Source: Ruminococcus sp.
Lineage (GTDB): Bacteria; Bacillota; Clostridia; Oscillospirales; Ruminococcaceae
Reading direction: 5' to 3'
Assembly: GCA_017534835.1 (NCBI GenBank)
Contig: JAFXVT010000047.1
Location: forward strand, 1-41,527
DNA: 41,527 nt
Shown here one piece after another: positions 3,951 through 37,939 of the stretch (its first letter is position 1; each line of letters opens with the position of its first letter). A program made the translations under genes and the position numbers. The notes under the pieces were generated by a model that saw nothing but the letters and a program-made list of their open reading frames with translations, did not search any database and was not told where the DNA came from.

Positions 3951-4704
3951 CGCTCATGTCACCTCCCAGAAGAGTCACAACGTCGATGATCTTGTCGAAG
4001 AACTGCTTGCGTGTGTTGTCTCCGCGTGTTATCGAGTTGAATATCTTGCCGTCCTTGATGAAGATGACGCGGCTCGCATAGCTTGCAGTGAAGCTGTCGT
4101 GCGTAACCATCATTATAGTTGCGCCGCACTCCTTGTTGAGGTAGCGGAAGCGCTCGAGCAGCAGCTTTGCTGATTTTGAATCGAGAGCGCCTGTCGGCTC
4201 GTCTGCGAGCACGAGCTTCGGACCTGTCACTATAGCACGCGCAGAGGCTACACGCTGCTTCTGACCGCCCGACATCTGATACGGGTACTTTTCGAGCACA
4301 TCGGCTATATCGAGCTGCTCAGCCACCTTTCTGACTGCCGCATCTATCTCCTTTGCCGGCTTCTTCTGTATCGAGAGCGCGAGGGCGATATTCTCGTATG
4401 CGGTCAGAGTGTCGAGGAGGTTGAAATCCTGAAAGATGAAGCCGAGGTTGTCGCGGCGGAATCTGTTGAGAGCCTTGCCGCGGAGCTTTGTGATGTCTTC
4501 GTCCTCGAGAAAGATGTGTCCGGCGGTGACCCGGTCTATTGTGGAGATGCAGTTGAGGAGGGTGGTCTTTCCGCTTCCGGAGGCGCCCATGATCGCGACG
4601 AATTCGCCCTTCTCCACCGTAAATGATATATCGTCGATAGCCTTTGTGAGGCTCGACTTGCTGCCGTAATATTTTTCTATCTGCTGTATTCTGAGTAATT
4701 CCAT
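3940..4704 (-). CDS. bceA: Bce-type ABC transporter ATP-binding protein
   Basis: This is a 254-residue ABC ATPase. Walker A GASGSGKT lies at 40-47, the signature YQMSGGQKQRV near 144, then Walker B LVLADEPTGALDSK and the H-loop VTHD. The pattern is that of the MacB/LolD/BceA class that pairs with FtsX-like permeases. The start chosen is the internal ATG at 4704 (MELLRIQQ), preceded by AAAGGAG seven bases upstream; an ATG 36 bases further up lacks a site. It supplies ATP hydrolysis for BceB, overlaps that gene by 11 bases, and has its own promoter region separating it from bceS. Confidence 0.92.
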   Translation of the reverse strand: MELLRIQQIEKYYGSKSSLTKAIDDISFTVEKGEFVAIMGASGSGKTTLLNCISTIDRVTAGHIFLEDEDITKLRGKALNRFRRDNLGFIFQDFNLLDTLTAYENIALALSIQKKPAKEIDAAVRKVAEQLDIADVLEKYPYQMSGGQKQRVASARAIVTGPKLVLADEPTGALDSKSAKLLLERFRYLNKECGATIMMVTHDSFTASYASRVIFIKDGKIFNSITRGDNTRKQFFDKIIDVVTLLGGDMSDAL

Positions 4705-4719
4705 ATCAACAGCTCCTTT

Positions 4720-4782
4720 CTGTATATTATAATACAGCATTTCCGCAAAGCTGTCGCTGTTTCAAGATTACAGAACATTACA
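4720..4782 (-). promoter_or_regulatory. Candidate bceAB promoter/operator region
   Basis: On the minus strand a TATAAT hexamer (4731-4726) lies within a perfect inverted repeat CTGTAT-N6-ATACAG (4720-4737). No good -35 is found at 17 bases, which is common for BceR-activated promoters. Further upstream TGTAA occurs twice 10 bases apart (4782-4768), a possible regulator contact. Assignment to BceR is inference. Confidence 0.4.
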
Positions 4783-4797
4783 TTTTTGAAAGGTTGG

Positions 4798-5793
4798 CTA
4801 TTCGGGCTTATAGAGCTCATTTTTGCCGAATGTGACAGAAATGTCCGTATATTCGCCCTGTACCGATGCAGCCGAAACAGCATGACCGAGCCTGCCGCAG
4901 AGCTTTTTCACGATGAACAGTCCCATTCCGGTAGACCCGCCGTGAGTCCTGCCGTTTTCGCCGGTGAAGGATTTCTCGAAAATGTTCGGCAGGTCGGCGG
5001 CAGGGATACCGATACCGTTGTCGCGGAAGTGCAGGACGGTCCGGTCGGGGAGCACCTCAGCGGTGACGGCTATCTCGTCCGCTTCGTATTTGATACTGTT
5101 GTTCATAAGCTGCCCTAAGATGAATGAGAGCCACTTTGCGTCCGTGAGCACCTCGGTATCAAGACCTTCGGTGCGCAGCGATATACAGCGTTCCTGAAGC
5201 TCCTCGCGGTTGCGGACAGCAATATCTGAAAATACACGCTTCAGAGTTACAGGCTTGATGATATAGTCCTTCTCGGCGCTTCCGCTGCGTGCATAGAACA
5301 GGACGTTCTCGATGTATTCGTCGATGCGGCGGAGCTGCTCGGCATAGCGTGTATTGCCGTCGTTGTGGCACATCAGCTGCAAGCCTGCGACGGGGAGCTT
5401 TATCTCGTGTACCCACATCTCGATATATTCGCGGAAATCGGAATTCTCGCGGTGTGCTGCACTTATCTGCTCATGCATCGACTTGTCCGCCTCCTGTACA
5501 GCCGTGCAGAGGATACGTCCGTCGAGGAATTCGGGCTCTTCGAGCATTTCGGGGAGGAGGTACTTGCGGTCGAGCTGCTCAAGGTCGGAGCTCAGCTTGT
5601 CATAGAAGCTCCTGCGGCGGAAGAATTCCCACAGCTCGGTAATGACGGCTCCGATGAGAGCGAGCACACTGACGATGACGACACACTCTGCAGGGACGTG
5701 AAATGTGAAGAGGAATATCAGCACGAGCGCGGACGCAACGGCGAGAATGAGGTATCTCGGGAGCCTGTCCCGTAAAAAAACAGCCGGTCTCAT
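4798..5793 (-). CDS. bceS: Intramembrane-sensing histidine kinase (BceS-like)
   Basis: A 331-residue kinase. Two transmembrane helices (about 13-33 and 36-54) are joined by a very short outer loop, the hallmark of intramembrane-sensing kinases that depend on a BceAB transporter for stimulus detection. The phosphoacceptor box WVHEIKLPV (H129) is followed by the ATPase motifs N (QLMNNSIKY), G1 (DNGIGI), F (IFEKSF) and G2 (GSTGMGL). The start at 5793 makes an ATGA overlap with the bceR stop; a longer frame upstream runs antiparallel over bceR and is not coding. The family phosphorylates a BceR-type regulator, here encoded immediately upstream. Confidence 0.9.
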   Translation of the reverse strand: MRPAVFLRDRLPRYLILAVASALVLIFLFTFHVPAECVVIVSVLALIGAVITELWEFFRRRSFYDKLSSDLEQLDRKYLLPEMLEEPEFLDGRILCTAVQEADKSMHEQISAAHRENSDFREYIEMWVHEIKLPVAGLQLMCHNDGNTRYAEQLRRIDEYIENVLFYARSGSAEKDYIIKPVTLKRVFSDIAVRNREELQERCISLRTEGLDTEVLTDAKWLSFILGQLMNNSIKYEADEIAVTAEVLPDRTVLHFRDNGIGIPAADLPNIFEKSFTGENGRTHGGSTGMGLFIVKKLCGRLGHAVSAASVQGEYTDISVTFGKNELYKPE

Positions 5794-37099: not shown

Positions 37100-37145
37100 A
37101 AAGAAAGCAGAAAGGCTCCCAAAAGGGAGCCTTTCTGCTTTCTTT
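37100..37145. terminator. Bidirectional terminator between the GH10 and dockerin-BECR-like genes
   Basis: A perfect 21-base stem (AAAGAAAGCAGAAAGGCTCC-type arm, 37100-37120) with loop AAAA and the complementary arm to 37145. T-rich arms occur on both strands, so it serves both convergent genes. Confidence 0.93.
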
Positions 37146-37878
37146 ATTGCCTGTCAAAGTATGCCTTCCCGGAAGACGGGCGGAAATATGTCCGTATGAA
37201 GCCGTCTGTGGAAAGAACGACAAATTCGTTCGTGGAAACGATGTAATAAACGCCGTCGCCGTCCTCTTTTTCGGTTTTGTACAGAGCAGCGGTGCTATTT
37301 ATGACGTTGCTTGCGCCGTGCTCGTATTCACCGGGTGTTGTGTATCCGAAATCGTCTGCGAATTCCGCACCGTGCTTGGAAAAATGCTGCTCGAGCAGAC
37401 TCTTGCTGCGGAAGTGGTATTCGACATACGCCGGAATGGGAGCGGTCGTTGTGACAGTGGTCGTAGTTGCCGGAGCGGTCGTAGTCGTTGTGAGTGTTGT
37501 AGTAGTTGTTGTTGCCGGAGAAGGGGAGAAGTAGCTCTCGGGCGAGTCGCTTCCGCCTGTTGATACGTAGGAATAGTAGGCAAGTATCAGCGAAGCGTCC
37601 TTTGCGTCGGTCACGCCGTCACTGTTTACATCAGCGGCGCTGCGCACCTGCTCGGAAAACGCAGAGGGGGCGCCGGTCGACAGCCGCGTGTACTCAACAA
37701 GGAGCTCAGAGGCGTCTTTTGCGTCGACTCCGGAATCTCCGTTCACGTCTCCGATGCCGAACGCGGTGCTTTCGGCGTTTGACGGTACAGCATATCTGCC
37801 GGATCCTGACAGAGAGACGGCGGCTGCGAGTGTCAGCACAGTTGTCACCAGACAGGCTGTTATTCGTTTTATATCCAT
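37144..37878 (-). CDS. Secreted dockerin protein with BECR-nuclease-like C-terminal domain
   Basis: A 244-residue exported protein. Order: signal peptide (1 to about 36), N-terminal type I dockerin (43-108; DVNGDSGVDAKDAS and DVNSDGVTDAKDAS), Thr-rich linker (118-149), and a compact C-terminal domain (150-244). The last domain has L..HF.KHG.EF (H165, H169), EYE..A, YKTEKEDGD, a TNEFVVLSTDG.IRTYF core (R229, T230) and a YFDRQ end. This matches, from memory, the pattern at the tips of polymorphic toxins and secreted small proteins grouped with BECR-fold (Barnase/EndoU/ColicinE5-D/RelE) RNases. Activity is unproven. There is no neighbouring immunity-like gene. A consensus promoter and AGGAGG precede it. 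Confidence 0.8.
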   Translation of the reverse strand: MDIKRITACLVTTVLTLAAAVSLSGSGRYAVPSNAESTAFGIGDVNGDSGVDAKDASELLVEYTRLSTGAPSAFSEQVRSAADVNSDGVTDAKDASLILAYYSYVSTGGSDSPESYFSPSPATTTTTTLTTTTTAPATTTTVTTTAPIPAYVEYHFRSKSLLEQHFSKHGAEFADDFGYTTPGEYEHGASNVINSTAALYKTEKEDGDGVYYIVSTNEFVVLSTDGFIRTYFRPSSGKAYFDRQ

Positions 37879-37910: not shown

Positions 37911-37939
37911 ATTATAGCATACCGCCTGACACGAGTCAA
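37911..37939 (-). promoter_or_regulatory. Promoter of the dockerin-BECR-like gene
   Basis: On the minus strand TTGACT (37939-37934), a 17-base spacer and TATAAT (37916-37911), about 33 bases from the ATG. It is stronger by consensus than the GH9 promoters. Confidence 0.85.

Follow-up and report, generated by a model that had tools for sequence, protein, structure and literature searches.

The stretch of DNA considered here (the window, 41,527 nt of Ruminococcus sp. contig JAFXVT010000047.1) carries near its right-hand end a minus-strand gene predicted to encode an exported-looking protein, in which an N-terminal dockerin is joined through a Thr-rich linker to a C-terminal domain of the BECR fold. 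The gene and the parts of its product are:

37144..37878, minus strand: exported-looking dockerin-BECR protein of 244 aa with an ATG start (predicted open reading frame, ORF).
37783..37878, minus strand: N-terminal signal-like region (approximately residues 1-32), Lys/Arg followed by a hydrophobic core, judged by eye.
37585..37752, minus strand: type I dockerin with two complete Ca-binding loops, DVNGDSGVDAKD and DVNSDGVTDAKD (PF00404 match).
37435..37524, minus strand: Thr-rich linker (approximately residues 119-148), from the sequence.
37147..37431, minus strand: colicin-D-type BECR domain, residues 150-244, with H165, K168, H169, E172, R229 and T230 (AlphaFold2 (AF2) model, Foldseek/VIA matches and conservation).

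A preliminary description of this DNA had claimed an N-terminal dockerin that would place the protein on a scaffoldin, a Thr linker, and a C-terminal domain at residues 150-244 with motifs of a BECR-like fold, and each of these elements is borne out. A Pfam search of the protein finds Dockerin_1 (PF00404) at residues 43-98 with an E-value of 2.9e-8 and 34.2 bits, above the cut-off of 22.9, and the same match is returned at C2:37585-37752 (E 2.0e-8) when the genome is searched. The linker and domain are present in the sequence, as are all the quoted motifs (HFSKHGAEF, EYEHGA, TNEFVVLSTDGFIRTYF and the YFDRQ end), with H165, H169 and R229 correctly numbered. A dockerin with both Ca-binding loops behind a signal sequence, the latter judged by eye and hydropathy, is the layout expected of a cellulosomal protein. 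Cohesins, to which such a dockerin could bind, occur in the same genome (14 matches, 13 over the cut-off; contigs C45, C20, C41, C61 and C67) and in 124 of 125 genomes of the genus (121 over the cut-off).

The C-terminal domain is modelled by AF2 with a pLDDT of 96.9 and matches structures of the BECR/colicin-D type (Foldseek, VIA), which supports the BECR-like fold of the preliminary description and points to the colicin D branch. A profile of the domain finds 8ey4, the CdiA toxin tip of Escherichia coli O32:H37 (a PT-VENN domain protein deposited in a toxin-immunity complex), at 1.8e-14; given this score and matches in 104 of the 125 genus genomes (103 strong, with G039 weak only at 0.00246), the domain match is not due to chance. 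Identity to the tRNase domain of colicin D (1v74, 5znm) is 17-20%; 1tfo and 1tfk, whose titles name a ribonuclease with its inhibitor, we also take to be colicin D from their common residue numbers. The BECR fold is defined by helical structure at the N-terminus and, after it, a meander of four strands (PMC3482391), an arrangement that is present in the predicted model. Its common active configuration pairs a His in the N-terminal helix with a Ser or Thr in strand 4 (PMC5512222), and in the AF2 model helix 1 (10-24) contains H165 and H169, and strand 4 (78-83) contains T230.

Conservation of these residues was counted in 129 of 134 distinct open frames (E < 1e-15, identical frames counted once). 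H165 is kept in 129/129 and H169 in 128/129, R229 in all 128 frames with a letter at that position, and T230 in 127 of 128, the remaining one having Ser; E172 is kept in 124 of the 129, with Asp in three others. The single loss of H169 is at locus L032, where Arg replaces it and H165, R229 and T230 are kept. The five distant frames left out of the counts (L086, L087, L168, L169 and L170, E > 1e-15) have, in the same alignment, H165 in two, H169 in two, R229 in three and T230 in all five; L168 and L170 are phage-type in look, as judged by eye. As findings that would speak against it, the preliminary description had named in advance an unrelated fold, or the absence of H165, H169 and R229 from most homologues; neither was observed.

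In colicin D the motif is [KH]K, Hxx[ED], [ST] and [TS]xxK, with K607, K608, H611, D614 and S677 essential (PMC3482391), and His611 acts as the general base (PMC9990079). Judged by spacing, H165 would correspond to [KH], H169-xx-E172 to Hxx[ED] and T230 to [ST]. In domain libraries, PF11429 (Colicin_D) is matched weakly by 32 of 56 relatives (best 3.6e-4) and PBECR3, also weakly, by seven of the 56; NCBIfam gave nothing useful. A zinc-finger Pfam row at E 0.05 was taken as chance.

Within the genus the domain is widespread, with matches in 63 of the 68 good genomes, and 94 of the 104 matching genomes have one match only. Strong matches in other genomes of the genus are 61-84% identical to the window domain. 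Classified by simple patterns, the 134 distinct frames comprise 66 lipoprotein-like, six with a dockerin and 62 others, the last group made up of membrane-anchored forms, lipoproteins missed by the pattern, one truncated frame and the five distant rows. A hydrophobic segment precedes the domain in all 128 rows with an intact 5′ end (by a hydropathy cut-off, not a signal predictor), and the N-terminal parts differ between relatives while the BECR domain stays constant. The genome of the window itself has a second, lipoprotein-like paralogue (G000:C67:119482-119760, minus strand), the domain of which is 74% identical and which lies directly upstream of uvrC. Of 48 loci with 4-kb flanks, 17 have uvrC on the same strand behind the domain gene (10 directly, six with one called ORF in between, and one in which the domain's own frame is uncalled), and 10 have a PepSY-like lipoprotein directly behind it (PepSY 20.9 bits against a cut-off of 24). 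Omega (dN/dS, the ratio of nonsynonymous to synonymous divergence), calculated from 92 core rows for the 175 core pairs with dS of 0.2-1.2 only, has a median of 0.109 and a maximum of 0.277, values that indicate purifying selection on the domain. Outside the genus the family is rare. Matches were found in 15 of 148 family-level genomes, three of them of this genus, in 10 of 391 class-level genomes (the source genome and four others at 1e-33 or better, the other five at 1e-9 to 1e-12 and some of these phage- or toxin-like by eye), and in five of 398 phylum-level genomes, the source genome and G356 again included.

Several layouts among the relatives were noted by eye, including a zinc-ribbon-like segment with a membrane span, Ig-like parts and a thioredoxin-like part, the latter ahead of the BECR domain at L079 in a Lachnospiraceae genome. 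In L071, L075, L077, L080, L178, L181 and L182, mostly from outside Ruminococcus, a CxxC...CxxC zinc-ribbon-like segment and a membrane span precede the domain, possibly as a sensor. At L193 a lipoprotein-like 307-aa protein (4604-5524, minus strand; no Pfam match at 0.001) is encoded upstream of the core lipoprotein-like copy, and relatives of it lie near the equivalent place in other genomes.

The preliminary description had proposed a search for the same fusion to dockerins elsewhere, and five genomes of the genus were found to have it besides that of the window (G000), namely G007, G012, G018, G079 and G104; all six also have a dockerin-less copy, that of G018 being cut by the contig end. 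Carriers of the dockerin form include R. flavefaciens YRD2003 (L038), Anaerotruncus sp. MC2020 (L039) and a yak rumen metagenome-assembled genome (L040), equated with G012, G007 and G079, respectively, by identical open frames; the R. flavefaciens FD-1 locus (L060) has the lipoprotein-like form. In five genomes the dockerin form lies beside the same oxidoreductase block, and these five copies constitute one clade with a support of 96 in a quick tree built from few columns. The sixth copy (G104, L115) is in another place and stands apart in that tree, although a single clade of all six is not rejected (p 0.74), the tree held to it having scored better than the free tree.

This distribution bears on the possibility that a domain recently derived from a phage was captured by chance behind a dockerin. 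Related domains do form the C-termini of phage portal proteins and of head proteins of MuF-like type: at E up to 0.01, PHROG 15528 (phage portal) matches 52 of the 56 members, and L185 and L187 are phage-type by eye. The portal match is explained by the phage branch of the fold. A search of BFVD viral structures gave one match under 0.001, to the unnamed A0A9E7CKV2 (E 1.7e-8). The window domain resembles the PBECR domains of portal and MuF proteins in its C-terminal position and in having a His in helix 1 and a Thr in strand 4 (PMC5512222), but its family is carried on exported-looking bacterial proteins and not on virion proteins. The conserved locus and clade in five genomes, the divergence among their non-identical copies (dN 0.12-0.18 with dS > 2 or saturated) and the genus-wide core paralogue all argue against recent capture, an explanation that was already disfavoured and is highly improbable.

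The preliminary description had also noted the absence of an immunity gene, and this too holds: the window gene is followed by a convergent GH10 gene and preceded by a divergent ATPase/oxidoreductase block, and no immunity-like gene adjoins it or the dockerin copies of G007, G012 and G018 (G079, at a contig end, and G104 were unchecked). Same-strand ORFs of 111-134 aa behind these four copies were considered as immunity genes and rejected, being antisense to acpP (G007, G012, G018) or to GH10 (window) and not one conserved gene. Downstream sequence of at least 1,300 bp was available for 60 copies, and for each the longest same-strand ORF with its start between 10 nt before and 150 nt after the end was recorded mechanically, antisense ORFs included. 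In 46 copies this ORF was long or open-ended; 10 had a short one within 60 nt, three fell under other kinds and one had none. The 10 short ones are the four behind dockerin copies and six at L026, L073, L076, L077, L078 and L081, which were not inspected. At many core loci the gene behind the domain is that for UvrC or the PepSY-like lipoprotein. A search of the source genome for Colicin_immun, the immunity family of colicin D, gave nothing at E up to 1, other immunity families not having been searched; an immunity gene of another kind could lie elsewhere.

Polymorphic toxins are recognized by an adjacent immunity gene, and by a C-terminal domain that varies while the trafficking module (CdiA, RHS, LXG, MuF) is shared. 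No immunity-like gene is seen next to the window gene or the three other dockerin copies checked. Strong matches in other genomes of the genus are 61-84% identical in the domain, which remains constant on varying N-terminal parts. Toxin-like relatives do exist on plasmids, where tblastn with the domain returned 22 records, of which three were inspected. In Priestia the domain forms the C-terminus of an SAR2788 family putative toxin, 34% identical there to the domain of the window, and an ORF of 105 aa begins 17 nt past its end. The Paenibacillus domain closes a DNRLRE-domain protein, with an ORF of 82 aa lying 18 nt beyond, and that of Rhizobium closes a hemagglutinin-repeat protein, the end of which is overlapped by a 68-aa ORF. 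From their place and size, the three small ORFs are candidate immunity genes. Unlike the window protein, the Priestia toxin is plasmid-borne, has such an ORF behind it and ends in a strongly basic tip (+12). More small ORFs follow the Rhizobium protein, one of them (L201 4078-4234) annotated as a MafI family immunity protein, so that its tail is apparently immunity-rich, unlike the ruminococcal loci.

These relatives, together with a nearest solved structure that is a contact-dependent inhibition (CDI) toxin and an active site that is kept, are what would be expected if the docked protein were a contact weapon, a Gram-positive analogue of CDI in which a colicin-D-type tRNase enters and harms bacteria crowding on the fibre. 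Such a role is distinctly unlikely, as no immunity-like ORF adjoins the four dockerin copies checked, the source genome gave no match to the immunity family of colicin D, the domain shows little polymorphism and the architecture includes no entry or translocation module. The species also has other weapons, the lanthipeptides of FD-1 being active against R. albus (PMC13289728). The suggestion of competition in the preliminary description is therefore not upheld: the protein belongs to a conserved, usually single-copy, exported-looking family, often encoded beside uvrC, under purifying selection and with no partner gene. Sister copies on exported-looking proteins in most of the relatives suggest a stable everyday role more than a changing weapon.

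We favour instead the reading that the dockerin-BECR protein is the cellulosomal form of a conserved family of exported RNases of the colicin D branch of the BECR fold, to which, the activity being inferred, we give a probability of about 0.5. The signal peptide would direct Sec export, the dockerin would bind a scaffoldin cohesin and the Thr linker would hold the BECR domain away from the complex. H169, by analogy with His611 of colicin D, would serve as the general base and, with H165, R229 and T230, would cleave RNA independently of metal. The likely substrate would be RNA from plant, microbial or protozoal cells lysed on the fibre, and the benefit could be a supply of nucleotides and phosphate or clearance of RNA-bearing material. 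No immunity partner would be needed because the enzyme would work outside the cell. The core paralogue, lipoprotein-like or membrane-anchored and often beside uvrC, would do an equivalent job at the cell envelope. More tentatively, and at somewhat less than even odds, the whole may represent a genus-wide, immunity-free surface RNase system derived from a toxin-type fold, of which a lineage moved a copy onto the cellulosome, giving a complex that also cuts RNA.

Several observations weigh against an RNase. The window domain is acidic (isoelectric point 5.2, net charge -5), as is the exported family generally (median -8, range -18 to +2 in 127 rows), and acidic charge may weaken RNA binding. By spacing, the place of K608, the second essential Lys of colicin D, is taken by Phe. 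The window protein gives no PF11429 row at E up to 10, in a search whose HMMER filters drop most weak matches; five of the 68 good genus genomes give no match; and nothing among the Pfam-scanned neighbours hints at a use of RNA or of nucleotides, genes of that kind not having been sought more widely. The domain might then bind or hydrolyse a small nucleotide, or be a structural or sensing surface module. The toxin relatives examined differ in charge (+3 for the matched stretch of 8ey4; +12, +20 and +3 for the Priestia, Paenibacillus and Rhizobium tips), and both the aromatic residue at the K608 place and the possible sensor layout seen by eye in some relatives would suit such a role. It is nonetheless rather unlikely, as the almost invariable His/Arg/Thr set is what is expected of a catalytic site and acidic proteins are common in the window, among them GH10, GH9 and a cytosolic ATPase. 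Charge was accordingly set aside as weak proof of a non-RNase role, and the acidity of the domain may be a lineage trend.

An extracellular RNase on the cellulosome would resemble known systems only in part. Barnase has barstar as its intracellular inhibitor. Barnase, RNase T and their relatives are secreted, metal-independent RNases that share the BECR fold, as grouped in PMC3482391, but they belong to a different branch from the window domain. In comparison with colicin D, the window protein has no receptor or translocation domain and its second essential Lys is not kept by spacing. From 8ey4, with its basic matched stretch, the domain differs in being acidic, in standing behind a signal-like start and a dockerin, and in having no immunity-like gene adjoining. 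Among cellulosomal proteins the closest parallels are the dockerin-serpin and dockerin-unknown proteins of R. flavefaciens FD-1, which likewise have a signal, an N-terminal dockerin and cargo other than a carbohydrate enzyme (PMC2930009), the window protein being unlike them in carrying a BECR domain. FD-1 has 118 dockerin proteins, in which 155 domains are called unknown, and 19 proteins whose dockerin is at the N-terminus (PMC2930009; for background see also PMC12700104 and PMC9086364).

Literature searches combining dockerin with ribonuclease or polymorphic toxin, and Ruminococcus with colicin D, found no report of such a protein, most subscription papers lying outside the search, and no mention of 8EY4 was found. 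The main texts of PMC2930009 and PMC4081043 contain no word beginning "nuclease" or "toxin" (a search that "ribonuclease" would escape), PMC13289728 (rumen bacteriocins) has no word beginning "colicin", "nuclease" or "dockerin", and the part of PMC3482391 searched has neither "dockerin" nor "Ruminococcus". These results give the domain joined to dockerins in some ruminococci a predicted fold, a set of active-site residues and a likely activity, and show its sister to be an exported-looking protein that is widespread in the genus. Were the domain an RNase, the reach of cellulosomes would extend past polysaccharide and peptide, and a fold met mainly in weapons would have a stable extracellular role.

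The gene itself stands alone between its neighbours, with two further features at its ends:

37911..37939, minus strand: promoter-like site TTGACT-17-TATAAT with TG before the -10 (consensus match only, 11/12).
37100..37145, no strand assigned: perfect 21-bp inverted repeat with a 4-nt loop (by eye; a scan reports part of it on the minus strand).

One promoter-like match was found in the upstream region against 1.1 expected by chance, and AGGAGG lies 8 nt upstream of the ATG (by eye). Upstream, the divergent block encodes the ATPase and a 2-oxoacid:ferredoxin oxidoreductase. Downstream, the convergent CBM-GH10 gene lies beyond the inverted repeat, which touches the stop codon of the dockerin-BECR gene and is likely a terminator common to both. 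At L038, L039 and L191, from three other genomes of the genus, genes of the acpP-accA-accD-accC-fabZ cluster directly adjoin the dockerin-BECR gene. In the window this cluster stands approximately 30 kb from that gene and in the opposite relative orientation (window 6578-37144), which fits either an inversion that ended near 6.5 and 37.1 kb or a mis-assembly. Lastly, the record MT836265.1 (L202), entered as Bacteriophage sp., has a gene for an Ig-like plus BECR protein that is exported-looking and bacterial in appearance, and the record may be mislabelled.
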